41,192 bases of DNA from a virus, in the IMG/VR virus record IMGVR_UViG_3300050033_000136, positions 1 to 41,192 of that record, one strand, 5' to 3'. Each line of letters starts with the position of its first letter. The stretch's first letter is position 1. Under the pieces are notes generated by a model. That model was not told the origin of the DNA. It did not search any database and saw only the letters and a program-made list of their open reading frames with translations. The position numbers and the translations under genes are program-made. This document shows positions 7,734 through 40,496 of the stretch, piece after piece.

Positions 7734-9264
7734 CTCAGGCAAGCCGTCCACCTCAGACCAAGCCCTCCAGCGCCGCGCCTCCTACGCCGGCGCCATCTTC
7801 CGCACAAGCGACGACTCGCTGCGCGTGCCGGCCTTCTCCGAGGACAAGATCGACCAGGAGACGTACGACGCGATGGAGGTCGATCCCATCGTGCGCATCT
7901 GCCAGCGGTTCAGGAAGGCATCCATCCAAGAGGCTCCCCGCAAGTGCGAAGGTCCTTCCCCGCGAACCGCCGCTCTCGTCGAAGCCATCATGGCGCCGCA
8001 CTGGGACGCGCTGTTCGACTCATGCGTCCGCACGGGGCTGTTCCGCGGCTACGCGCCTCACGAGGACGTGTGGGAGCGGGGCGACATCGAGATCACGTAC
8101 ACGCCCGACACCGAGCAGGTCGAGCCCGGCGCCGTCGACGCGCAGGGCATGCCGATCATCCCGGACAAGGCCGAACCGATCACCGAGACGGTCAACGTCT
8201 GGAAGATCGCGCGCCTCAAGCCCATCCAACCGGCGAACATCATCAGCGTCGAGATGGATCGCGTCGAGCACCTTGCGGGGTTCACGCCCGTCTCGCCGGG
8301 CACACCGGTACGCGTCGAGGACGCCGCGGTGTTCTGGTTCCAGCACCAGGGCCGTTGGGCAGGCGCCGGCTACTTCGGCGAGCCTGACGGTGCGGCCGTC
8401 TACGACCCGTGGTACCGCAAGCGCATCCTGGCAGACGCGCTGCAGACGTGGGCCAAGCGGTTCGGCAAGCCGATCCCGCACATTGGGTTCGCTCCCGGCG
8501 AGCAGCCGGACAGCGCGGTCGGCGAGGATGGGCGGGCTGTTCCCGGCTCCGGCACGAGCAACGCCACGATTGCCGGGCAGATGGTCAAGGACCTGCTCGA
8601 GCAGGACGACCCGGGCATCTGGTACCCCACGGGTTCGACGATGGACTCAGAGGGCAACGCCGGCGAGTGGAAGATCGACTTCCTCGAGATGCACGGCGAC
8701 GGCGCCAAGGTCTACATGGACGCGATCCACTACTACGACGTGCAGATCTCCTACGCGATGCTGACGCCCGAGAAGACCTACTCCGGCGAGGGCACGACCG
8801 GCACCTACGCCATGAGCCAGACGCACAAGGACGTCGCCGACACGATCACCGTGGGCGACCTGAAAGAGATCCTCGCGGCGGTCAACAAGCAGCTCGTGCC
8901 GACCATCGTCAAGCTCAACCTCGGCCCCGACGAGCCGTCTCCGAGCTACACGACGCCCGGACTGGACGACGCCCGCCAGCTCCGTCTGTGGCAGGTGCTC
9001 GAGACCGTGCTCGGCCGCGCGATCGCGACCGGCGCCGTCGAGATGGACTGGGACGAGATCGACGACCTCGGCTTGCCGGTGAAGAACGTCAGCAAGGAGT
9101 CGACGGTCGTGGAGAACCCGACCGACCCGACCAAGGGCACGTCCGCCATGGACATGTCCGAGGCCACGCTGCTGCTCGCCGAGATCCGCGAGGCCACGAC
9201 CGCGCTGAAGGCTGGCCGACAGGAGACGCGGCTGAAGGAGGCCATCGGTGGCCGTCCACGCTAA
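7642..9264 (+). CDS. Portal protein (Mu Gp29-like, DUF935)
   Basis: 540 residues; ATG behind GCAGGAAAGGAACG. Forms the dodecameric channel at the capsid vertex through which DNA enters. Resemblance to the Mu Gp29/DUF935 family is seen in EVDPIVRICQRFRKASIQ near the N-terminus, the central IARLKPIQPANI, the PWYRKRILADALQTWAKRFG helix and PGIWYPTGSTMDSEG. Context (terminase before, MuF protein after) fits. Residues 49-64 (AGAIFRTSDDSLRVPA) are encoded by a 49-bp segment, 7784-7832, that recurs exactly at 39849-39897 in the same reading frame, at the end of an unrelated small gene. Confidence 0.9.
   Translation: MANRAQRALRSLAAGAGRLLLGDGDTSAWGSSGKPSTSDQALQRRASYAGAIFRTSDDSLRVPAFSEDKIDQETYDAMEVDPIVRICQRFRKASIQEAPRKCEGPSPRTAALVEAIMAPHWDALFDSCVRTGLFRGYAPHEDVWERGDIEITYTPDTEQVEPGAVDAQGMPIIPDKAEPITETVNVWKIARLKPIQPANIISVEMDRVEHLAGFTPVSPGTPVRVEDAAVFWFQHQGRWAGAGYFGEPDGAAVYDPWYRKRILADALQTWAKRFGKPIPHIGFAPGEQPDSAVGEDGRAVPGSGTSNATIAGQMVKDLLEQDDPGIWYPTGSTMDSEGNAGEWKIDFLEMHGDGAKVYMDAIHYYDVQISYAMLTPEKTYSGEGTTGTYAMSQTHKDVADTITVGDLKEILAAVNKQLVPTIVKLNLGPDEPSPSYTTPGLDDARQLRLWQVLETVLGRAIATGAVEMDWDEIDDLGLPVKNVSKESTVVENPTDPTKGTSAMDMSEATLLLAEIREATTALKAGRQETRLKEAIGGRPR
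7784..7832 (+). repeat. 49-bp exact direct repeat, copy 1 (in portal gene)
   Basis: Identical base for base with 39849-39897. It is read in the same frame in both genes and gives the same 16 residues. The flanking bases differ on both sides. Confidence 0.95.
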
Positions 9265-11836: not shown

Positions 11837-11870
11837 TATGCCCCGATTGTACTCCGAAAGGAGGCGCCAC

Positions 11871-13322
11871 GTGGACCAGTTCACCTCACTGGCACTCGCG
11901 GTAGACCAGGCTGCCGACGTCATCTCGATGCCCGTCGTGCAGATGGGCGAGTTCGTCAGCTCGAAGCACAAGTTCGGGAGCCGGGTCAAGATCGGACGCG
12001 ACCGGCTCGACCGCATCGCGGCCAACGCCAACTCCAACGTGTCCGGCGTCGGCGTGATGCTCGACCTGAGCAACGACCACTCGCGCGGCGACTCGGCGGG
12101 CTGGATGGTGCCGGGTTCCGCCAAGGTCGCGCCGTTCATCAGCCCGAAGACGAAGCGCGAGGAGCTCGGGGTCTGGATGGACTTCAAGCTCAACGACACC
12201 GGCAAGAACGTGGTCGACAACCTGAAGCGCCGGTTCGTGTCGATCGACACGCAGCCCTACACCGACGAGCAGTCGCAGGTGACGACGGCCGACGTCCCGT
12301 TCGCCGTCGCGCTGACCAACAGGCCGATCATCAAGAGCCTGCCCGGGCTGGACGCCGCGCAGCGCATCGCGGCCGCCGAGGACGACGACGACAGAAGCTG
12401 GCTCGTTCTCGGCGAGGTGCTCGACGAGGTGACCCGTCAGGACGGCATGGACCCTCCGCCTGAGCTGCAGACTGCGGGCTGGAGCGTCTACAAGGCCACG
12501 AGCGCCTTCGAGTCGCTCGTTCGCAAAGCCATGGCAGACGGTCTGACGGGCGAGGAGCTCAAGGCCCGCATCGAGGAGCTCGCGGCGGACCTGCCGGCTG
12601 CCGCCATCGCGGCCATCTCTGAAGGCGTCGCGAACGCCAACGAAGCCACACCAGCGACGGAGGTTCAGCCCGCAGTCAAGCAGGTCGACCCGGTCGCTCT
12701 CGCAGAAGATCCCGAGGCCGCAGAGGCCACCCCAGACGACGAGGGCAAGACTCCGGCCGAGCAGGCTTTCGAGGCCCTCGACGATGCATGGCAGTCCCTG
12801 GAGGCATTGTGCAAGGGCGGCAAGGGTGCCCCTGCGATGCGCCAGCTGCACAAAGAGGCTCGCCAGAAGGCAGCCACAATCCTCACTCCGAAAGGAGGCA
12901 CCACCCAGATGGCCGAGACCGACACCGAACTCCAGCTTGCCGAGCTCAAGGCCACGAACGAGCGCATCAGCGCAGAGCTGAAGGCGTCTCGTTTGGACCG
13001 CATCAAGGACCGCGTCCAGCGGCTCCCGTACGACAAGGCCACGCAAGAGGGTCTGATGCTGCTCGCAGAGGCGAGCGACGGCGACACCCTGGCACTGGCC
13101 GAGGGCGACGAGGTCAAGAACGTGCCCATGATCGACTACGCGCTGGCGCTCTTCGAGAACGCGCAGCGCGTCCACATCGAGGTCACGTCCGTCGAAGGCC
13201 CCGGCGCGCTCGAGAGCGGCGAGGCCCTGAAGCTCGCCGAGTCCATCCCCGGCATCGACTCCGAGAAGGCCGCGAAGGTCGCAGCCCGCATCGAGGCCCG
13301 CCGGTCCGCCGACAAGGGTTAA
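11871..13322 (+). CDS. Mu-type prohead protease with fused scaffold
   Basis: 483 residues from GTG 11871, which has an ideal AAAGGAGG site; earlier in-frame ATGs lie before that site. Residues ~20-170 resemble the Mu gpI protease family: a beta-rich N-terminal part and the segment LDLSNDHSRGDSAGWMVPG around His70, then YTDEQSQVTTADVPFAVALT. The protease matures the capsid by removing scaffold. The middle is Ala/Glu-rich, and the C-terminal 137 residues form a helical, charged scaffold-like region with its own ribosome-binding site (see nested entry). This matches Mu, where protease and scaffold share one frame. Confidence 0.85.
   Translation: MDQFTSLALAVDQAADVISMPVVQMGEFVSSKHKFGSRVKIGRDRLDRIAANANSNVSGVGVMLDLSNDHSRGDSAGWMVPGSAKVAPFISPKTKREELGVWMDFKLNDTGKNVVDNLKRRFVSIDTQPYTDEQSQVTTADVPFAVALTNRPIIKSLPGLDAAQRIAAAEDDDDRSWLVLGEVLDEVTRQDGMDPPPELQTAGWSVYKATSAFESLVRKAMADGLTGEELKARIEELAADLPAAAIAAISEGVANANEATPATEVQPAVKQVDPVALAEDPEAAEATPDDEGKTPAEQAFEALDDAWQSLEALCKGGKGAPAMRQLHKEARQKAATILTPKGGTTQMAETDTELQLAELKATNERISAELKASRLDRIKDRVQRLPYDKATQEGLMLLAEASDGDTLALAEGDEVKNVPMIDYALALFENAQRVHIEVTSVEGPGALESGEALKLAESIPGIDSEKAAKVAARIEARRSADKG
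12909..13322 (+). CDS. Nested scaffold protein (in-frame internal start)
   Basis: 137 residues from ATG 12909, in the same frame as the protease gene. AAAGGAGG at 12891-12898, identical to the site of the parent gene, lies 10 bases upstream. The product (starting MAETDTELQLAELK) is a charged helical protein, as expected of a capsid scaffold, and matches the Mu gpI/gpZ arrangement in which free scaffold is made in excess from an internal start. Confidence 0.75.
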   Translation: MAETDTELQLAELKATNERISAELKASRLDRIKDRVQRLPYDKATQEGLMLLAEASDGDTLALAEGDEVKNVPMIDYALALFENAQRVHIEVTSVEGPGALESGEALKLAESIPGIDSEKAAKVAARIEARRSADKG

Positions 13323-15539: not shown

Positions 15540-15612
15540 CCCGGCCGCCGAAGAGCGGCTCAAGGCGACCAGTTAAGGAGTTCAGACATGGCATCGTTCA
15601 CCTTTGTCAACG
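15540..15612 (+). repeat. 73-bp exact direct repeat, copy 1 (before glycosyltransferase)
   Basis: Identical to 16577-16649. This copy holds a non-coding ghost of the glycosyltransferase's last codons, a ribosome-binding site (AAGGAG) and the first eight codons (MASFTFVN). Just upstream, GGGCAGG pairs with CCTGCCC (about 15525-15542) as a small hairpin. Confidence 0.95.
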
Positions 15613-16613
15613 TCAGCGTGGTCGTGTGCGCCTACAACGAGGAGGAGAACATCGAGCGGATCCTCGCTCCGTTCTCCGACGCGGTGGTGCTCGACAACGG
15701 CTCCACGGACCACACCGTGGCACTGGCGGAAGCGATGGGCGCGCGGGTGTTCGATACCTCGCGGCGCTTCATGCTGAGCCCGACGCTTCAGGACGTGGAC
15801 TCCTTCGCGGAGCGGTTCGGCTATCCGCCGTCCTTCGAGGTCGGCCAGTCGTTCCAGGACTCGGGAGCACGCCGAGCGTGGGGCGCCGGGCAGGCGACCT
15901 ACGACTGGTGTTACTTCCCGGACTGTGATGAGCACCTGACCGAGTTCGACGCTGAGGCGATAGAGGCGCTGCTGCCCACGTGCGACCGGCTGACCTACCG
16001 CTTCGTGCATGCGCACGACGAGGACGGCAACCCGACCGTGGAGTTCGCGAACAGCAAGCTCTTCCGCAAGAGCAAGACACACTGGGAAGGCATCGCGCAC
16101 GAGGTCGGCGTTCCCGATCCCGACGCCCGCGAGGTCTTCACGACCGCGATGCGCGTCGACCACTGGCAGCGGGCCAACCCCGACCGCGGGATCCCGCGCC
16201 TGCAGGTCATCGAGTACATGGCGCTCAAGCAACCGTCCGCGCGCAACAGCTACTACTGCGGGCGGACGTACATGGAACACGGCGACGCCCCGAAGGCCGC
16301 TACGCTTCTGCTCGAGGCCACCAAGTTCCCGCAGTGGCGACCGGAACGCTCCGAGGTCTATCGGCTCTTGGCCCAGTGCGTGGACAACCCGGAGATGCAG
16401 CAGGCGTACTCCTACGCGGCGATCTCCGAGGACCCGACCCGGCGCGAGTGCTGGACGTCCCTCGGCGACTTCTACTCTCGGGGCGGCAACGAGCAGGCGG
16501 CCCGCGCGTTCTACGCGGCGGCCCTGACCGTGCCGTTCGACCCAACGTCGTTCCTGACCGACGCGACGCAGTTCTCCCCGGCCGCCGAAGAGCGGCTCAA
16601 GGCGACCAGTTAA
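15588..16613 (+). CDS. Family-2 glycosyltransferase with helical repeat tail
   Basis: 341 residues. The GT-A fold begins at residue 9 (VSVVVCAYNEEENI), continues with VVLDNGSTDHT (nucleotide-sugar site) and has the DxD-like metal motif in FPDCDEHLTEFD. The C-terminal third has TPR-like helix pairs (SYYCGRTYMEHGDAPKAATL, YRLLAQCVDNPE, AARAFYAAAL). Such enzymes move a sugar from a nucleotide donor to a protein or glycan. Placed among virion genes beside a Thr-rich collagen-like protein, it may modify virion proteins. The first eight residues are identical to those of the next gene and the gene is bounded by 73-bp direct repeats, so it was probably added by duplication or recombination. Its original start appears to have been replaced. 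Confidence 0.85.
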   Translation: MASFTFVNVSVVVCAYNEEENIERILAPFSDAVVLDNGSTDHTVALAEAMGARVFDTSRRFMLSPTLQDVDSFAERFGYPPSFEVGQSFQDSGARRAWGAGQATYDWCYFPDCDEHLTEFDAEAIEALLPTCDRLTYRFVHAHDEDGNPTVEFANSKLFRKSKTHWEGIAHEVGVPDPDAREVFTTAMRVDHWQRANPDRGIPRLQVIEYMALKQPSARNSYYCGRTYMEHGDAPKAATLLLEATKFPQWRPERSEVYRLLAQCVDNPEMQQAYSYAAISEDPTRRECWTSLGDFYSRGGNEQAARAFYAAALTVPFDPTSFLTDATQFSPAAEERLKATS

Positions 16614-16649
16614 GGAGTTCAGACATGGCATCGTTCACCTTTGTCAACG
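16577..16649 (+). repeat. 73-bp exact direct repeat, copy 2 (after glycosyltransferase)
   Basis: Identical to 15540-15612. This copy encodes the glycosyltransferase C-terminus (PAAEERLKATS), its stop, the ribosome-binding site and the first eight codons of the next gene. Confidence 0.95.
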
Positions 16650-17089: not shown

Positions 17090-18586
17090 ATGGCTGACCC
17101 ACGCCTCATAGTCGTCGACAACGGCGGCACCATCCTGTCCGAGAACAACGCCGAGACCCACTCTCTCTTCTCGGGTGAGCCGCACCTGCACGACACGGCA
17201 TCGTGTCGCGTCAAGGTGGACACCGCCGGGTGGCAGCGCATCAACGCGCCCATCGGCTGCTCGCCCGGTATCGCGCTGTCCTTCGACGGCGTGAACTACG
17301 GCACCGAGGGTTCGCTCGACGGCTCCACGGGGAACATCGTCTACTCCGGCCCGGTGTTCTTCGCTGGCGTGCTGCTGTACGTGCAGTGCGTCTCGGTTCA
17401 GGCTGGCCCGGTGTGGATCTCGCTGCCGCAAGGCGGGTGCACCATCATCGAGGTCGACACCGCCATGTCCGCCGACGTGCTTGCCGATGCGCTGTCGCTC
17501 GTCGGTCCAGCCGTCACCTCCGACGCGAACCTTGCGAGCGACGTGCTGGCGAACACGGCCACGTTGCCGAGCGTGCAGGTGCTCATCGCCGGGCAGGTCT
17601 ATGCGGACGTGCTCACGCTTTCCGGGACCGTTCCGGCGCCGAGCGTCGTTCCCACCACGCCCGTAACAGCCGACGTGCTGACGATGATGGCCGCGATGGG
17701 CGGCGTGCTGTTCTCTGGTCTGCTGTTCGAGGACAGCTTCGCCTCGCTCGCCAACTGGTGCGCGGTCGACGCGGCCACCGGCAACATCTCCGACTCGAAC
17801 ACGGTCCACCCCGAGTACACGGCCGCATCTTCGATGCTGCATTGGCACGGCGATGACCTGAACGCCTACTTGGAGGCCGTCAAGTCCACGGCGCTGTCCA
17901 ACGTCCTGGCGGACTGCGTCGTGCAGATGAAGCTCGCCACCGGGGCGTCTGCTTGGGGCACCGGCACCGACAACAACGACTCGCACGCCATCATTGTCCG
18001 GCACGGCGACGTGTACGCCACGAGCGGCCAGGGCTACATGCTCCTGTTCGGGCGCATGGGAACAGCGGACGCATCCAACCAGAAGCTCTACGTGGGCAAC
18101 CCCGGGTGGGCGCAGCTCGGCAGCACGCAGAGCAACGCGCTCGCGGCCGCTTCAGTGGTGTCCTTGTCCGCCCTCGGGACCGCGATCGCGGCGTACCGCA
18201 ACGGCGTGGCCATCGTGTCGGCTACCGACGTGCTCCAGACCGCTGGTCGCGTCGTCGTCTGGTCGCAGAACTACTCCGGCAACGGCACGAGCCACGACAT
18301 CGCAGACAAGGTGACGGTCATGGCCGGTCCGGCTGTCACGGTCACGAGCCTGCCGAGTGGCTACAAGGCCGAACTCACCGACGCCTGGGGAGTCGTCACC
18401 GTCAAGGTCACAGCCTCCTCTGGGACCGCCGTGGTCAACGGACTGGATACCTCTGTCACCGCGCTGGCCTCCGGCTCGAACTTCTGCTACTCGGGTGGGG
18501 CCACGCTCAAGATCTACGACGGCAGCAACACACTCATGCGGACCTACACCGGCATGTTCGGTGGCGGCACCATCGTCTACGCATAG
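17090..18586 (+). CDS. Lectin-like tail/fibre protein with DANLASDVL repeats
   Basis: 498 residues, ATG behind AGAGAGGGGG. The N-terminal ~120 residues are beta-rich (VWISLPQGGCTIIEV). Residues ~120-205 form a degenerate repeat region with motifs SADVLADAL, SDANLASDVLA, YADVLTL and TADVLTM. Residues ~210-410 look like a concanavalin-type jelly roll (LFEDSFASLANW; DSHAIIVRHGDVYA; GYMLLFGRMG; SQNYSGNGTSHD). A small C-terminal beta domain follows. Such architecture suits a carbohydrate-binding virion protein. A 35-bp DNA segment in the repeat region (17516-17550) recurs exactly in the next gene. Confidence 0.65.
   Translation: MADPRLIVVDNGGTILSENNAETHSLFSGEPHLHDTASCRVKVDTAGWQRINAPIGCSPGIALSFDGVNYGTEGSLDGSTGNIVYSGPVFFAGVLLYVQCVSVQAGPVWISLPQGGCTIIEVDTAMSADVLADALSLVGPAVTSDANLASDVLANTATLPSVQVLIAGQVYADVLTLSGTVPAPSVVPTTPVTADVLTMMAAMGGVLFSGLLFEDSFASLANWCAVDAATGNISDSNTVHPEYTAASSMLHWHGDDLNAYLEAVKSTALSNVLADCVVQMKLATGASAWGTGTDNNDSHAIIVRHGDVYATSGQGYMLLFGRMGTADASNQKLYVGNPGWAQLGSTQSNALAAASVVSLSALGTAIAAYRNGVAIVSATDVLQTAGRVVVWSQNYSGNGTSHDIADKVTVMAGPAVTVTSLPSGYKAELTDAWGVVTVKVTASSGTAVVNGLDTSVTALASGSNFCYSGGATLKIYDGSNTLMRTYTGMFGGGTIVYA
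17516..17550 (+). repeat. 35-bp exact repeat, copy 1 (lectin-like gene)
   Basis: Identical to 21221-21255. It encodes the same SDANLASDVL motif in both virion proteins. Confidence 0.9.
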
Positions 18587-18595
18587 GGCGGTCAC

Positions 18596-21500
18596 ATGAG
18601 CCTGTCGGTCACAGACAACGGTGCGGCGCTGGCCCTCAACGGCTGGACCGACGCCGTCACGCTCTACAAGGCGCCGGGTTCTTCGAGTTCGACCGTCCTG
18701 GCCGTCGGCTCGAAGTTCACGGTCAAGGCCAACGCGCTGGCCGCGTACATCGGCACGGCCGGGACCGCCCACATCGCGAGCATCGACAGCTACACGACGG
18801 CGACCGGCTCCGACGGCCTGGGCAACTACCTCGACCTGACGCTTTCCTGCACCGTGTCGCTGGGCACAAGCGCGTCCGAGACCATCCGCATCCGCTTCTA
18901 CGACGGCCTGCCCGTCTTCGACGTGAAGGTGACTACGGCCGGCAGCTGGGCCGGATTCTCCAAGCGCCTGCTCGCGCTGACGTACCCCTCGTCGGCGTTC
19001 CCGTGGTTCACCGTCTCGGCTCCCTACGCTTTCGGCCCGACATACTGGGCGCTGCCGTGTTCGATGGTGGACTACGGCGACTTCTCGTCCACGGCACGGT
19101 CATCGTGGACCAACCAGCTCGACCTGTCCGCCTCTCCGCTCCCGAGCGGGACCGGCGCAGGAGAGTTCTGGGGACTGCCATTCGTGAGTGAGTCGGGCGG
19201 CGGCATCGGGCCGTATGTGGCCTTCGGCTCAGGTGTGCTCTACGACTCGTGCTTCGAGTACCAGACGGCCACGACCGCGCTCTCGGCGCGCTGCAACGGC
19301 ACGGGCACCAACCCGGGTGCCGCGGTCTCTCCCCTCGGCGGATTCTTCGTCACGACCGACAGTGGGTACTCGGCGCTCAATCGTTACGCCCTGTGGCAGC
19401 AGCGCGACTACCCGGCAGGGACGCTCCCGGCCAACGCCGTCCGACCGTTCATGGCGCTCGCCGCGGTCAACCCCGTGACGGGGGTCAACCAGCAGCCCGC
19501 GTCGTCCTTCAACTACACCACGGCGAACATCTCGGCCGACATCGCATCCGTGGCGTCCGCCTATCCGAACCTTGTCGGCTCGACCAAGCCGATCCGCGTG
19601 TTCGAGGCCGACCTCGCGTGGTTCGACTGGCTGGGCCAATGCGCCCCCAAGTCAGCCGGCGGCGGTCACTACGGCGGCGACTCGAACGGTGCGGGACTCG
19701 TCACCGCCGTCAACGGCGCCGGATTCGACGCGTGGTGCTACATGCAGCCCTACGTCGAGACGCAATGGTGCGCCGCGGCGGGAGTCCCGTCTGACGCCTA
19801 CGTCACGGCGACCGTAGCAGGCTGGGATGCGACCGTCACGCACATCTGGGACCACACGACCGCCAACGGCCGTGCGCAGATCGCGGCGATGGCACAGCGG
19901 GTCCACGACCTCGGATTCGCGGGCTGCCGCTGGGACTGGATGAGCAACGAGCCGTGGCGCGAGTTCGGCATCCTGTACTACTTCCGCCAGGCCATCAAGG
20001 CGCTCGACCCGAACTTCGTCATCGAGTGCGGCGACGGCTACGTACAGGCCATCGGTGACATCCTCGACAACGCGGGGCAGTTCGGCTACGGCGCCGGCAC
20101 GAACGCCCAGTGGGACGTCATGCTCCTGCACCGCGCCAAGATCATGGCGCTGTCGGCTCCGAACAAGTCACTGTGCTGCGACCTGCTCGCAAACGCCGAC
20201 GACACGACGGTCATCCGGCCCCTCGCGACCGTCCAGAAGCAAGCGCGCATCATGTTCGGCTACGGCTTCCCGTCGATGGGATGGATGGACCCGGCCGTCT
20301 TCAGCGGCGGCAACCCGTTCACCGACCCGACCGTGACGGGCTACTTCGCCAGCTACGAGGCGATCGTCGCACGCAACGCGACCAACCCGGTACCGACGCG
20401 CTCCATCGTCGGCAACATCGACACTTCCTACAGCGTCGTGCAGACGTGGGCGGACGGCTCGACCGTCACCTACGACGCGACCGCCGACACGCTGACGTTC
20501 GCGACGAACGTCCCAGCCGACACGCTGACTCTCGCGCTCGCGCCCTCGGCATCAGTGAGCGCGGACGCGAACATGACGGCATGCAAGCTCACGGAGACGA
20601 TGGCCATCCCACCGCTGCTCTCGGTCTTCGACGTGGCACCCGGAGTCCTGTCGCCCCCAGCGTCGGTGTACGTCATCGCCGACGTGCTGACGATGACGCT
20701 GACCGCTGCGGGTTCAGAGACCGACGACGCCAACGTCATCGCCGACGTGCTGGGCATCTCCGGCACGATGCTGATCTCCACGTGGTCGTACTTCGACGTC
20801 GCGGCCGGCGTCCTCGCCTTCACGCAGGACGTATACGTCGCGGCCCAGGCCCTTTCGATGCTCGACTCCGTGGGCGGCACCACACAGCGCGGGGACGCCG
20901 CGACCGTCGCGGACACGCTGGCTCAGACCTTCGCGGAGCCGGACACGTCGCTGTCGGTCGACGCGAACCTGCTGGCGCAAGCGTTCTCGGTACTCGACAG
21001 CCTGCCCGATGTCACGTTCTCCTTCGGCATCCCCGCCGCTGTCCTCGCCGACACGCTGTCGCTGATCGAGGCCGTCAACGACGTCGGGCTCACATCCGAC
21101 GCGAACCTGCTCGCCGATGGGTTGGCCCAGGCATTCTCCATCGCCGGAACCGTGGCGGGCGACGCGAACGCCACGAGCGACGTGCTGGCGGAGACTGCGA
21201 GCATGCAGAACCCGGCGGCGACCTCCGACGCGAACCTTGCGAGCGACGTGCTGGCACTTGCCGAGACACTCGGCAGCTTCACGTGGAGAGTCGACGCGAT
21301 ACTCACCGCCGACCTGCTCTCAGTCCTGCACGCGATGGTCGATCCTGCCATCACCGGTGACGCGGGGAGCACCCCGGACGTGCTGGCGATCCTCGCGGGC
21401 ATCGAAGAAGCGACGCTGACGTTCGATGCCAACCTCGCACCCGATGCGCTCCTCGTGTCCGATGTGCTCTCACAGGTCGGTTTCTCCGTCGAGGTCTACC

Positions 21501-21601
21501 ACCTGCACCTAGCGCCCGGCGCGCTTCGCACAGCGGCTCCTCCACGCGGCTCACAGCACTTGAGTTACCTGCCCGTCGGCATCCCCACGATGAAGGACTA
21601 G
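18596..21601 (+). CDS. Virion glycosidase-like protein (clan-D-like barrel)
   Basis: 1001 residues, the longest gene. Residues 1-~300 form a beta-sandwich like the N-terminal domain of alpha-galactosidase-type enzymes. Residues ~330-600 look like a TIM barrel: RVFEADLAWFDW, AGFDAWCYMQPYVETQW, RAQIAAMAQRVHDLGFAG then CRWDWMSNEPW (Asp447 as candidate nucleophile), and DPNFVIECGDGY (Glu477/Asp480 as candidate acid). This order resembles GH36/GH31-type retaining glycosidases. From ~630 to ~970 runs a long degenerate repeat region (DANLLADGL, DANLASDVLA, DANLAPDALL). It probably degrades host surface glycan during adsorption. The enzyme class is inference from pattern only. Confidence 0.55.
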   Translation: MSLSVTDNGAALALNGWTDAVTLYKAPGSSSSTVLAVGSKFTVKANALAAYIGTAGTAHIASIDSYTTATGSDGLGNYLDLTLSCTVSLGTSASETIRIRFYDGLPVFDVKVTTAGSWAGFSKRLLALTYPSSAFPWFTVSAPYAFGPTYWALPCSMVDYGDFSSTARSSWTNQLDLSASPLPSGTGAGEFWGLPFVSESGGGIGPYVAFGSGVLYDSCFEYQTATTALSARCNGTGTNPGAAVSPLGGFFVTTDSGYSALNRYALWQQRDYPAGTLPANAVRPFMALAAVNPVTGVNQQPASSFNYTTANISADIASVASAYPNLVGSTKPIRVFEADLAWFDWLGQCAPKSAGGGHYGGDSNGAGLVTAVNGAGFDAWCYMQPYVETQWCAAAGVPSDAYVTATVAGWDATVTHIWDHTTANGRAQIAAMAQRVHDLGFAGCRWDWMSNEPWREFGILYYFRQAIKALDPNFVIECGDGYVQAIGDILDNAGQFGYGAGTNAQWDVMLLHRAKIMALSAPNKSLCCDLLANADDTTVIRPLATVQKQARIMFGYGFPSMGWMDPAVFSGGNPFTDPTVTGYFASYEAIVARNATNPVPTRSIVGNIDTSYSVVQTWADGSTVTYDATADTLTFATNVPADTLTLALAPSASVSADANMTACKLTETMAIPPLLSVFDVAPGVLSPPASVYVIADVLTMTLTAAGSETDDANVIADVLGISGTMLISTWSYFDVAAGVLAFTQDVYVAAQALSMLDSVGGTTQRGDAATVADTLAQTFAEPDTSLSVDANLLAQAFSVLDSLPDVTFSFGIPAAVLADTLSLIEAVNDVGLTSDANLLADGLAQAFSIAGTVAGDANATSDVLAETASMQNPAATSDANLASDVLALAETLGSFTWRVDAILTADLLSVLHAMVDPAITGDAGSTPDVLAILAGIEEATLTFDANLAPDALLVSDVLSQVGFSVEVYHLHLAPGALRTAAPPRGSQHLSYLPVGIPTMKD
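21221..21255 (+). repeat. 35-bp exact repeat, copy 2 (glycosidase-like gene)
   Basis: Identical to 17516-17550 in the neighbouring lectin-like gene, 3.7 kb upstream. Confidence 0.9.
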
Positions 21602-34454: not shown

Positions 34455-36425
34455 ATGAAGCTGGACAAGCTCCAACTCCACAACTTCAAGGGCCTCCGCG
34501 ACTTCACGCTGACGCCCGACGGCCAAAGCCTCAACGTCTTCGGCGACAACGCCACCGGCAAGACCACCCTGTCCGACGCGCTTCACTGGCTGCTCTTCGA
34601 CAAGGACAGCACCGGCGCCAAGGACTTCGCGATCAAGACGACCGACGAGTCCGGCGAGGCGATCCACAACCTCGACCACTCCGTGAAGGCCACGCTCGAC
34701 GTCGGCAGCAACTCGCCGATCGTGCTGGAGAAGGTCTACCGCGAGCAGTGGACCAAGAAGCGCGGATCCGCGACGTCCTCGTTCACCGGCCACACGACCG
34801 ACTACTTCGTCGACGGCGTGCCGGTGCCGCTCAAGGACTACAAGGCGCGCATCGCCGAGTTGGGCGACGAGGAGACCTTCCGCCTGCTGACCAACCCGAG
34901 CCACTTCAACTCGCTGCACTGGGCCGACCGCCGGCGCATCCTGCTCGAGGTCTGCGGCGACATCGACGACGCCGAGGTCATCGCGTCGAGCAAGAAGCTC
35001 AAGCGCCTGCCGGAGCTGCTCGGCAACCGCTCACTGGACGACGAGCGCAAGGTGCTCGCCGCGCGCCGCAAGGAGATCAACGCCGAGCTCGAGCGGATCC
35101 CCGTGCGGATCTCGGAAGTCGGGCGCGGCCTGCCCGAGACGCCCGCCACCGTGCAGCCGCTCGCCACCATCGACTCCTACATCGCCAAGACCCGCGAGGA
35201 GATCGCACGCATCGAGGCCGGGGGAGAGGTCGCCGAGGCCACGAAGCGCAAGCGCGAGATCGAGGCAGAGCTGCTCGAGCTGGACAACGCCGATCGCGCC
35301 GCCGTCAACGGCGCTCTCGCTGACGCCGACGCCGTGACCTCCGCCAAGCGCCGTGAGGCATCCAAGGCTCGCGACCTCCTCGCCGAGATGGTCTCGGAGC
35401 GCGACCGCACCCAGCGGACGATCGACGAGAACTCGGCCGAGCTCACCCGCAAGCAGGAGCGCATGGCCGCTCTGCGCGACCGGTGGTCGAAGGTCGATGC
35501 CGATACGTTCACCACACCTGACTCCGACACGGTCTGTGCCGCGTGCGGCCAGGAGCTTCCGGCGGACCGCATCAAGGCCGCCCACGACAAGGCGCTCGCC
35601 GACTTCAACCGCATCAAGGCCGAGCAGCTCGAGGCGATCACCGCCGAGGGCAAGACGCTGAAGCTCGCCGCCGACGAGCTCGCAGGCAAGACCGAATCCT
35701 GGCGCTCGTGGCTAGTCAACTTCGAGTCAGGTATCGCGGAACAGCAGGCGGACGTGGACGGGCTGAGCAAGAAGGAGGCCGCGGCGCCCGTCCACGAGAC
35801 CGTCGTCGAGATCCCCGGGAACGCGCTGCGCGCCGCCGGCCTCAAGGCGCTCGCTGCCACCGAGGTCGAGATCGCGGCGCTTACCGCCGACGTCGCCCCC
35901 AAGCTCGCTGAGCTGCGAGCAGAGATCGACGGACTTCTCGACGAGCGCACAGCCGCCGAGCAGGCAGCCCGCGACCTGGACGCCATCGACAAGGGCCACG
36001 CCCGCATCAAGGAGCTCGCCGCCGAGGAGAAGGCGCTCGCCAAGGAGTTCGAGCAGCTGGAGGCCGACTTGTTCCTGACCGAGGAGTTCGTCCGCGCCAA
36101 GGTCGAGCTGCTGGAGTCCCGCATCAACGCCCGCTTCTCACTCGTGCGCTTCCGGCTCTTCGAGCAGCAGATCAACGGCGGCCTGGCTGAGTGCTGCGAG
36201 ACGCTCGTGGGCGGGATCGGCTACAGCGACATGAACTCCGCTGCGAAGGTCCAGGCCGGCATGGACATCATCAAGACCCTGTCGGAGTTCTACGGCCTCA
36301 CGGCGCCCATCTTCGTGGACAACCGGGAGTCCGTCGTCGAGCTGCCCGCCATGGACTGCCAGGTCATCTCACTGTACGTGAGCGCCGACGACAAGGTGCT
36401 CAGGGTCGAGAAGGTCTCGGCATGA
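34455..36425 (+). CDS. Rad50/SbcC-like AAA ATPase with zinc hook
   Basis: 656 residues. N-terminal DKLQLHNFKGLRDFTL and Walker A GDNATGKT (residues 30-37) are typical of the RecF/SbcC/Rad50 group. A long coiled coil, about 180-560, is interrupted by CAACGQEL (Cys361 and Cys364), a zinc hook that pairs two molecules. The C-terminal lobe has APIFVDNRESV in the Walker-B position. Such ATPases work with a nuclease on DNA ends. Here the partner may be the metallo-beta-lactamase-fold protein three genes downstream, and RecT would use the single strand produced. It overlaps the next gene as ATGA. Confidence 0.85.
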   Translation: MKLDKLQLHNFKGLRDFTLTPDGQSLNVFGDNATGKTTLSDALHWLLFDKDSTGAKDFAIKTTDESGEAIHNLDHSVKATLDVGSNSPIVLEKVYREQWTKKRGSATSSFTGHTTDYFVDGVPVPLKDYKARIAELGDEETFRLLTNPSHFNSLHWADRRRILLEVCGDIDDAEVIASSKKLKRLPELLGNRSLDDERKVLAARRKEINAELERIPVRISEVGRGLPETPATVQPLATIDSYIAKTREEIARIEAGGEVAEATKRKREIEAELLELDNADRAAVNGALADADAVTSAKRREASKARDLLAEMVSERDRTQRTIDENSAELTRKQERMAALRDRWSKVDADTFTTPDSDTVCAACGQELPADRIKAAHDKALADFNRIKAEQLEAITAEGKTLKLAADELAGKTESWRSWLVNFESGIAEQQADVDGLSKKEAAAPVHETVVEIPGNALRAAGLKALAATEVEIAALTADVAPKLAELRAEIDGLLDERTAAEQAARDLDAIDKGHARIKELAAEEKALAKEFEQLEADLFLTEEFVRAKVELLESRINARFSLVRFRLFEQQINGGLAECCETLVGGIGYSDMNSAAKVQAGMDIIKTLSEFYGLTAPIFVDNRESVVELPAMDCQVISLYVSADDKVLRVEKVSA

Positions 36426-36967
36426 CGGCGGCCGTTGACATCACCGCGCGCCGTTTCGGACGGCTGGTCGCTGTAAGAAGCACTGGCAGCAACCATCGCA
36501 AGCAGCGCCTCTGGCTCTGCATCTGCGACTGCGGAGAGACCACCGAAGTGCCGACAAGCGCGCTGCTCATGGGCAACACGAAGAGCTGCGGGTGCCGCCA
36601 TCGCCAAGTGCTGGCTGAGGGGTCTCGCACTCACGGGAAGTCAGTCGATCCGGCAACCGGCAGGCGAGCCCGCCTCTACAACACCTGGCGAAAGATGCGC
36701 CAACGCTGCTTCAACCCCAATGACCCGAAGCACCCGGACTACGGCGGCCGAGGGATCACCGTCTGCCCGGAATGGCTCGGCTACCCCGCTTTCCACACTT
36801 GGGCCATGGCCAACGGCTACGAGGCCCATCTGTCCATCGACCGCATCGACGTCAACGGCAACTACGAGCCCTCCAACTGCCGGTGGGCGGATGCGAAGAC
36901 GCAGGCCAACAACAGACGGCCTCGTCGCTGGAAGACCAAACCCATCATCGAAAGGACCGCGTCATGA
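36422..36967 (+). CDS. HNH-like zinc protein of the YGGRGI type
   Basis: 181 residues, ATG overlapping the ATPase stop. Residues ~10-60 form a Cys-rich finger (WLCICDCGETTEV, then KSCGCRHRQV). A second part carries the strongly conserved block RLYNTWRKMRQRCFNPND, DYGGRGITVC, IDRIDVNGNYEPSNCRW and ANNR. This family is widespread in phages and resembles HNH/AP2-type homing endonucleases; activity has not been inferred beyond DNA binding or cutting. It separates the ATPase from RecT and is probably a later insertion, though it is fully integrated by stop/start overlaps. Confidence 0.75.
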   Translation: MTAAVDITARRFGRLVAVRSTGSNHRKQRLWLCICDCGETTEVPTSALLMGNTKSCGCRHRQVLAEGSRTHGKSVDPATGRRARLYNTWRKMRQRCFNPNDPKHPDYGGRGITVCPEWLGYPAFHTWAMANGYEAHLSIDRIDVNGNYEPSNCRWADAKTQANNRRPRRWKTKPIIERTAS

Positions 36968-37884
36968 CTGACACCCCCGCGGGCGCCCAGCTCGCAACGA
37001 CCAAGAACCAGATCGTCGACCTGGTGGCCGACAAGGTCCGCCAGTTCGCGACCAATGGACAGCTCAACTTCCCCGCCAACTACAGCCCAGAGAACGCGCT
37101 TAAGAGCGCGTGGCTGATCCTGCAGGAGACCGTCGACAAGGACAAGCGCCCGGTGCTCTCGGTCTGCACGACGCCGTCCGTCGCCAACGCGCTGCTCAAC
37201 ATGGTGGTCCAAGGCCTGAACCCCGCCAAGAAGCAGGGCTACTTCATCGCCTACGGCTCCGTCCTCGTCTTCCAGCGTTCCTACTTCGGGACGATGGCCG
37301 TCGCCATGCGCGTGGACCCGAACATCGAGGACATCACCGCGCAGGTCGTCTACGCGGGTGACACGTTCAAGTACGCCATCGAGCGCGGTCGCAAGCGCGT
37401 CGTCGAGCACGTGCAGGATCTGGCGAACATCGAGAAGGCCAAGGCCATCGCCGCGTACTGCACGGTCTACTACCGCGACGGTCGCGAGATCTCCGAGGTC
37501 ATGACGCTCGACGAGATCAAGCAGGCTTGGAAGCAGTCGCAGATGCGTCCGGTCGGCGACGACGGCGGGATCAAGGCCGGGTCTACGCACGACAAGTTCC
37601 AGGCCGAGATGATGATGAAGACCGTCATCAACCGCACCTGCAAGCGCATCGTCAACGCCTCCGACGACTCCGACCTGGTCATCAAGGCGTTCGTCGCCAG
37701 CGACCAGGACACGGCCGAGGCGATTGCCACCGAGCAGATCTCAGTCAACGCCAACACCGACGAGATCATCGACGTGCCGGTGCACGTACTTGCCGACACT
37801 CCCGCCTCCGAGCAGCCGGACGTCGACTGGGACGCCGAAGCCGCAGCGCGCGCGGCCGAGGGCGCCGATGGGCCGGGCTTCTGA
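36964..37884 (+). CDS. recT: RecT single-strand annealing protein
   Basis: 306 residues, ATG overlapping the stop before it, with AAAGGA upstream. Core family features: SAWLILQETVDKDKRPVLSV, VVQGLNPAKKQGYFIAYG, RSYFGTMAVAMRV and EMMMKTVINRTCKR. RecT coats single-stranded DNA and pairs it with complementary strands during replication or end repair. No RecE-type exonuclease is next to it; the flanking ATPase and metallo-beta-lactamase-fold genes are the likely end-processing partners. The last ~60 residues are acidic. Confidence 0.95.
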   Translation: MTDTPAGAQLATTKNQIVDLVADKVRQFATNGQLNFPANYSPENALKSAWLILQETVDKDKRPVLSVCTTPSVANALLNMVVQGLNPAKKQGYFIAYGSVLVFQRSYFGTMAVAMRVDPNIEDITAQVVYAGDTFKYAIERGRKRVVEHVQDLANIEKAKAIAAYCTVYYRDGREISEVMTLDEIKQAWKQSQMRPVGDDGGIKAGSTHDKFQAEMMMKTVINRTCKRIVNASDDSDLVIKAFVASDQDTAEAIATEQISVNANTDEIIDVPVHVLADTPASEQPDVDWDAEAAARAAEGADGPGF

Positions 37885-39619: not shown

Positions 39620-39901
39620 GTGAGCGACTTGGACACCACCCGACTGGCGGACTTCATTCTCCTGACCGACCGCATGGCGGCCACGCTCCGGGACATGGGG
39701 GAGTCGCTGCACGGCGACCCCGATGCCGTCGAGCTCGCGGATGAGTACGACCGGTTCAAGGCCAGCGAGGCCGCGGATGGCGCCGTCGACGCCGCGGACT
39801 TCAACGCCGACGAGCCGGTCGAGGAACGCGAGTGCCCGGAGTGCGCCGACGCCGGCGCCATCTTCCGCACAAGCGACGACTCGCTGCGCGTGCCGGCATG
39901 A
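39620..39901 (+). CDS. Small protein ending in a copied portal segment
   Basis: 93 residues, GTG 39620 behind GGAAGGGAGTGG, 2 bases after the previous stop. Acidic helical body (LADFILLTDRMAATLRDMG) and a CPEC pair at about 73-76. The last 16 residues (AGAIFRTSDDSLRVPA) and their 49-bp DNA are identical to portal residues 49-64. The stop follows directly after the copied part. The gene therefore looks like a fusion created by recombination with, or donating to, the portal gene. Confidence 0.65.
   Translation: MSDLDTTRLADFILLTDRMAATLRDMGESLHGDPDAVELADEYDRFKASEAADGAVDAADFNADEPVEERECPECADAGAIFRTSDDSLRVPA
39849..39897 (+). repeat. 49-bp exact direct repeat, copy 2
   Basis: Identical to 7784-7832 in the portal gene, in the same reading frame. 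The next base starts the ATG of the following gene. Confidence 0.95.
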
Positions 39902-40014
39902 ACGGACTCGTGCATGTCGGCAAGCATCCCGTCAACGTGGCCTTCTGGCGCGACGCCCTGCTCATCATCGCGACCGCCGCGCTCATCGTCATCATCGTGC
40001 TGGTCCTCAGGTGA
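39898..40014 (+). CDS. Mini membrane protein (38 residues)
   Basis: ATG 39898 overlaps the previous stop (ATGA) and the stop overlaps the next GTG. A short soluble N-terminus with two His (HVGKHPVNVAF) precedes one membrane helix (ALLIIATAALIVIIVLVL). Unknown function. Confidence 0.55.
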   Translation: MNGLVHVGKHPVNVAFWRDALLIIATAALIVIIVLVLR

Positions 40015-40496
40015 GCTCGACCGAGATAGTCGCCGCGATCGACCCTGGACTCGCGAACTGCGGCGTCCTGATATGGGACGGCCGGCGCATCATCGCCGCG
40101 CGCACGTTCACGAGTGGCGGAGACGGCTACCGGACGGACTTCGATCTCGCGTATCAGCGGTCGCGCGCGACCGCTGACGACGTCGCCGAGTACCTGCTGG
40201 CCTACCACGTCGAGCGGGCGGTCGTCGAGAAGTACCGCGACATCCCCGGCGATCTCCGTAAGGCGCGCAACCGCTGGACGACGCCGCTCGCGATCGGGGT
40301 GCTGCTCTCGAGGATCGACGTCGACGGCCGCACGATCATCTTCCAAGACCCGGAGTACGTGATGACCGCGTACTCGCAGGCGAAGTCGCTGTGGAAGGCG
40401 GGTCGGCACGGGATACTGCCCGGCGACGAGCTCATCACGAACGACCACCTGCGCAGCGCCGGTTGCCACCTGCTGTCCTACACGGCGCGCTCATGA
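40011..40496 (+). CDS. RuvC-like Holliday junction resolvase
   Basis: 161 residues, GTG overlapping the stop before it (GTGA). RNase H-like fold: IVAAIDPGLANCGVLIW (Asp11 as first catalytic acid), then RAVVEKYRD (Glu73), and a C-terminal region with TAYSQAKSLWKAG and LITNDHLRSAG where a further Asp (in TNDH) may complete the metal site. Cuts four-way DNA junctions; in phages it clears branched DNA before packaging. Position with recombination genes fits. Confidence 0.75.
   Translation: MSSTEIVAAIDPGLANCGVLIWDGRRIIAARTFTSGGDGYRTDFDLAYQRSRATADDVAEYLLAYHVERAVVEKYRDIPGDLRKARNRWTTPLAIGVLLSRIDVDGRTIIFQDPEYVMTAYSQAKSLWKAGRHGILPGDELITNDHLRSAGCHLLSYTARS

Follow-up and report, generated by a model that had tools for sequence, protein, structure and literature searches.

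The window, i.e. the whole stretch of DNA that was analysed, is a viral contig of 41,192 nt. At the locus in question a 93-codon open reading frame (ORF) with a GTG start is followed directly by a 38-codon ORF, and the TGA of the first overlaps the ATG of the second as ATGA (Table 1). The next two operon junctions overlap by 4 bp as well (GTGA at 40011 and ATGA at 40493). The 38-codon ORF is not preceded by a Shine-Dalgarno sequence, and the same applies to the next two overlapping genes. The coding bias of the 93-codon ORF is as strong as that of its neighbours, while searches of the small ORFs with Pfam, PHROGs and PADLOC gave no match.

A 49-bp stretch that takes in the final 16 codons of the small ORF is found a second time, exact and in direct orientation, inside the portal protein gene, which is otherwise unrelated to it. 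Both copies are read in one frame, as residues 49-64 of the portal and residues 78-93 of the small protein, and mismatches occur right outside each end (CTCCT and CTTCT flank the portal copy, CGCCG and ATGAA the other). Direct comparison of the two copies confirmed the identity, the shared frame and the abrupt ends given in the preliminary description, and the small gene was found to stop as it had stated, with the TGA following the repeat at once. It had further taken the lack of silent differences to mean a copy that is either recent or kept by selection; recency fits our results, and selection would fit the missing differences equally well.

Table 1. Positions in the window of the features discussed in the text.
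Feature	Position	Strand	Evidence
Portal protein gene, Mu gp29 / DUF935-like, 540 aa	7642..9264	+	PF06074 E 3.1e-29; phrog_113 E 5.8e-29
49-bp repeat, donor copy, inside portal gene (residues 49-64)	7784..7832	+	exact match; segment matched in portal relatives
GCCGGC, left outer end of donor segment	7786..7791	.	
GCCGGC, right outer end of donor segment	7827..7832	.	
73-bp repeat, copy 1: ribosome-binding site, start codon and first 8 codons of glycosyltransferase gene	15540..15612	+	
73-bp repeat, copy 2: end of glycosyltransferase ORF and start of phrog_644 gene	16577..16649	+	
SbcC-like nuclease subunit, candidate contributor (putative role)	34455..36425	+	phrog_77 E 3.5e-72
RecT-like annealing protein, candidate contributor to ectopic annealing (putative role)	36772..37884	+	PF03837 E 1.2e-35; phrog_148
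Small ORF, 93 aa, GTG start; predicted helical hairpin 6-53, then low-confidence tail; no family found	39620..39901	+	
49-bp repeat, ectopic copy, last 16 codons of small ORF	39849..39897	+	exact match
Putative acceptor GCCGGC, within 8-nt left microhomology ACGCCGGC (39849-39856)	39851..39856	.	
Putative 41-bp templated insertion, ending in second GCCGGC (39892-39897)	39857..39897	+	frame and microhomology analysis
38-codon ORF, one hydrophobic stretch, probably the former C-terminus of a split gene	39898..40014	+	

A match of 49 bp far exceeds what chance would give. No other dispersed exact repeat of the genome is as long, and the longest repeat obtained by chance in 100 order-5 Markov genomes of equal length was 22 bp. 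None of 23 other phage records contained an exact direct repeat longer than 32 bp with copies more than 1.5 kb apart. The comparison phage TM4 carries a 32-bp repeat, of which one copy is at a gene end and the other where nothing is annotated; it differs from the present case, where both copies are coding. The distance between the two copies is 9.1 kb by the short path if the genome is circular, otherwise 32 kb.

As to which copy is native, a search of portal relatives for the segment encoded by the repeat showed that the matching stretch is kept, and the portal copy was judged to be the native one. Alignment gave 27 distant loci. The stretch was read in 20 distant relatives at an identity of only about 20%; here '..WAGRD....LPGGG.VQFDLSKL' aligns with AGAIFRTSDDSLRVPAFSEDKI of this portal, and P63 and F65 are near-invariant. 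Taken alone, this sequence comparison provides moderate evidence. The stronger argument comes from the frame, as the portal region around the repeat is coding and removal of 41 bp from it shifts the frame of everything past residue 50. On both grounds we regard the portal as donor, and copying in the opposite direction, from the small locus to the portal, was rejected. The position of residues 49-64 within the fold could not be read from the AF2 model of the portal, which was poor (pLDDT 47).

One observation goes beyond the preliminary description: the repeat has GCCGGC at both of its outer ends, the 49-mer being composed of ACGCCGGC, 35 bases and GCCGGC. Elsewhere in the genome neighbouring GCCGGC sites are always at least 80 bp apart, the pair in the portal gene and its copy being the only exceptions. 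An end-microhomology of at least 6 is found in only 0.57% of the genome's 49-mers, where it should be noted that the microhomology statistics were devised after the sequence had been seen. The donor ends ACGCCGGC and GCCGGC are consistent with a single acceptor ACGCCGGC, which we infer to have been present at the small locus before insertion. Further, when 41 bp are taken out, the small ORF joins the 38-codon ORF in frame, giving 117 codons that end in a hydrophobic segment.

The best explanation of the locus as a whole is that a short templated insertion, with the portal gene as its source, entered the small locus recently; to this we assign a probability of roughly 0.7. That some copying event from the portal gene took place seems very probable, and it is likely that it had the form of an insertion at GCCGGC; the event is recent. 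A recombination scar was among the earlier suggestions, and this reading is supported and made specific here as a 41-bp microhomology-flanked templated insertion with the portal gene as source. A function as recombination substrate, suggested at the same time, is conceivable in principle and found no support; exchange between the copies would delete essential genes.

The insertion might have proceeded as follows. A nascent strand of the small locus, formed during replication or through annealing by a RecT-like protein, would end in ACGCCGGC and slip onto the identical 8 bases in the portal gene, 41 portal bases would be copied up to the next GCCGGC, and the strand would return to the original GCCGGC of the small locus, so that microhomologies of 8 and 6 nt are used at the joints. 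The empty site would accordingly have been ...GTGCGCCGACGCCGGC^ATGAACGG..., and at the level of reads the expected junction would be ...GACGCCGGC followed at once by ATGAACGG.... As for the enzymes behind the copying we can only guess; a RecT-like and an SbcC-like protein are present, and ordinary replication slippage would suffice.

Since 41 is not a multiple of three, such an insertion would shift the frame. The ancestral gene of about 117 codons may have encoded a helical hairpin, an acidic linker and a C-terminal hydrophobic anchor, and the result would be the 93-codon ORF with a portal-derived tail together with a 38-codon ORF whose start lies in the ATGA overlap; after the insertion the downstream part would be translatable only from the ATG of this overlap. 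Hence one protein of about 117 residues with a membrane anchor was probably broken in two by the insertion, although the existence of the fused ancestor, which is read from a single sequence, is put somewhat less firmly than the insertion itself. The portal-derived peptide sits in the low-confidence tail of a single-sequence structure model of the small protein, and this tail is probably without a function of its own.

The ATGA directly after the junction would be a coincidence if a gene was split here; it also fits an ATGA that was already there and had its upstream end overwritten. In such a gene-conversion-like replacement the portal copy would have overwritten the 3' end of the small gene next to an already separate 38-codon gene. 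A pre-existing ATGA is natural in view of the 4-bp overlaps at the next two operon junctions, but both GCCGGC at the two donor ends and the in-frame fusion obtained by removing 41 bp become coincidences, and we consider the replacement unlikely. Less probable still is that a host enzyme of the NaeI/NgoMIV type cut at GCCGGC and that ligation joined the 41-bp portal fragment, lying between two sites, to the small locus, itself cut at such a site. In favour of this, the repeat ends at the one pair of GCCGGC sites in the genome that lie close together, but GCCGGC is just mildly depleted (44 observed against 61.5 expected), unlike AGCGCT (0 against 25.2), hence it does not appear as a clear restriction target, and two extra matching bases (AC) at the left are left unexplained.

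The window is a contig from a virus collection, and a second assembly of the phage was not found in the viral contigs, which speaks for considering an assembly or library chimera. This would need two junctions just 49 bp apart, in spite of both flanks being coding with the same bias and frame and of the downstream flank continuing the run of genes that overlap by 4 bp. A flank-swapped assembly was rejected, as it would give the portal an unrelated N-terminus, whereas the N-terminus as it stands resembles that of relatives. Judged from these sequence features, an assembly or library chimera is very unlikely.

It was also proposed that the peptide mimics part of the portal. On such a reading it would be kept by selection, and the tail of the small protein would act as decoy or competitor, aimed at a host defence that senses the portal or at a phage partner that binds it. 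The shared reading frame, the exact identity and an operon with recombination genes are in line with this, and portal-sensing defences do exist in the form of SpbK and Avs4 (PMC8880864, PMC12847820); from the SpbK-YonE and Avs4 cases (PMC12847820) it can be seen that a phage could be affected by a free surface resembling the portal. SpbK and Avs4, however, bind the clip, the stem and part of the wing (PMC12847820), while the copied residues 49-64 of 540 form an N-terminal segment outside these surfaces, and any sensor or decoy here would be hypothetical. Moreover, the tail is predicted at low confidence, a peptide mimic needs no DNA identity at every codon, and GCCGGC at the ends speaks for an origin by mutation. 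The proposal found no positive support, and we give it very little credence. A regulatory or site-specific recombination repeat (operator, att or pac) was rejected on account of there being only two copies, both within coding sequence.

Searches for relatives covered viral contigs and genome contigs. In the viral contigs no relatives of the small gene, the portal, the terminase or the RuvC-like protein were found, and the 47-bp exact core of the repeat was absent from those searched; the genome contigs gave no relatives of the portal or the small gene. Neither collection yielded a relative with the empty site, so that a single sequence is the basis on which the ancestral state is inferred. When the 38-codon ORF was sought with a degenerate DNA pattern, only short, unrelated frames matched. 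The RecT search returned 54 loci, the best of which, L033, shares the SbcC-RecT-hydrolase module; the small gene is absent from the L033 record, and a 14-bit match there was taken as chance.

Among known processes, the proposed templated insertion resembles template switching and microhomology-mediated replication of the FoSTeS/MMBIR type, short-range template switches (PMC7954356) being one example, in the short exact copy, the probable microhomology at both joints, the direct orientation and the intact source. Indeed the ectopic stretch is an exact copy of a source in the same genome, and that source is intact. The present case differs in that it concerns a phage, that 9 or 32 kb separate the source from the copy according to which path is taken, and that a gene was given a chimeric 3' end. 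Phage mosaicism by relaxed annealing of the RecT/Red type (PMC2327257, PMC3945230) is related in so far as this phage encodes a RecT-like protein that could promote short-homology exchange; by comparison, the exchange is here intragenomic and of 41-49 bp, and the role of RecT is putative. Most likely the 49-bp copy is an ordinary kind of mutation caught fresh, a mutational scar rather than a new system. If this reading is right, the locus is a clean natural record of a phage gene that gained a new end and was split by one copying slip, in which donor, acceptor and probable microhomologies can all be read.

A second exact ectopic repeat in the genome, of 73 bp (76 bp at 99%), points to a repeated tendency. 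It flanks, in direct orientation, a glycosyltransferase gene (phrog_13126) that lies among structural genes, and the start region of this gene, with ribosome-binding site, start codon and 8 codons, reads exactly like that of the phrog_644 gene which comes next. Homologues of the glycosyltransferase align to residues 7-330 of 341 only, which is essentially the part between the repeats. The two ends of the 73-bp repeat have no matching microhomology, hence its detailed mechanism may differ. Taken with the 49-bp copy, and if the reading given above is right, it suggests that phages which carry annealing proteins of the RecT type can be supplied with start signals and protein tails by short self-copies.

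Some further features of the genome were observed. A leucine-rich-repeat (LRR) gene with 66-bp tandem repeats spans both contig ends (40900-41192 and 1-316), which suggests that the genome is circular, or circularly permuted, and was broken within the LRR repeat; an exact terminal overlap between the contig ends was not found. Over the whole window AGCGCT is absent, where an order-4 Markov model predicts 25.2 occurrences, and AGGCCT occurs 3 times against 17.7 expected, a depletion that suggests avoidance of host restriction sites. Two near-identical ribosome-binding-site regions of 20 bp (11851-11870 and 12885-12904), one upstream of the point where a large ORF probably starts and one within this ORF just ahead of an internal ATG, suggest a scaffold gene nested in a head protease gene. 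Finally, the adjoining large proteins encoded at 17090-18586 and 18596-21601 have many imperfect 'SDANLASDVLA'-like motifs in common, and a 35-bp exact repeat (17516/21221) is located within these two genes.
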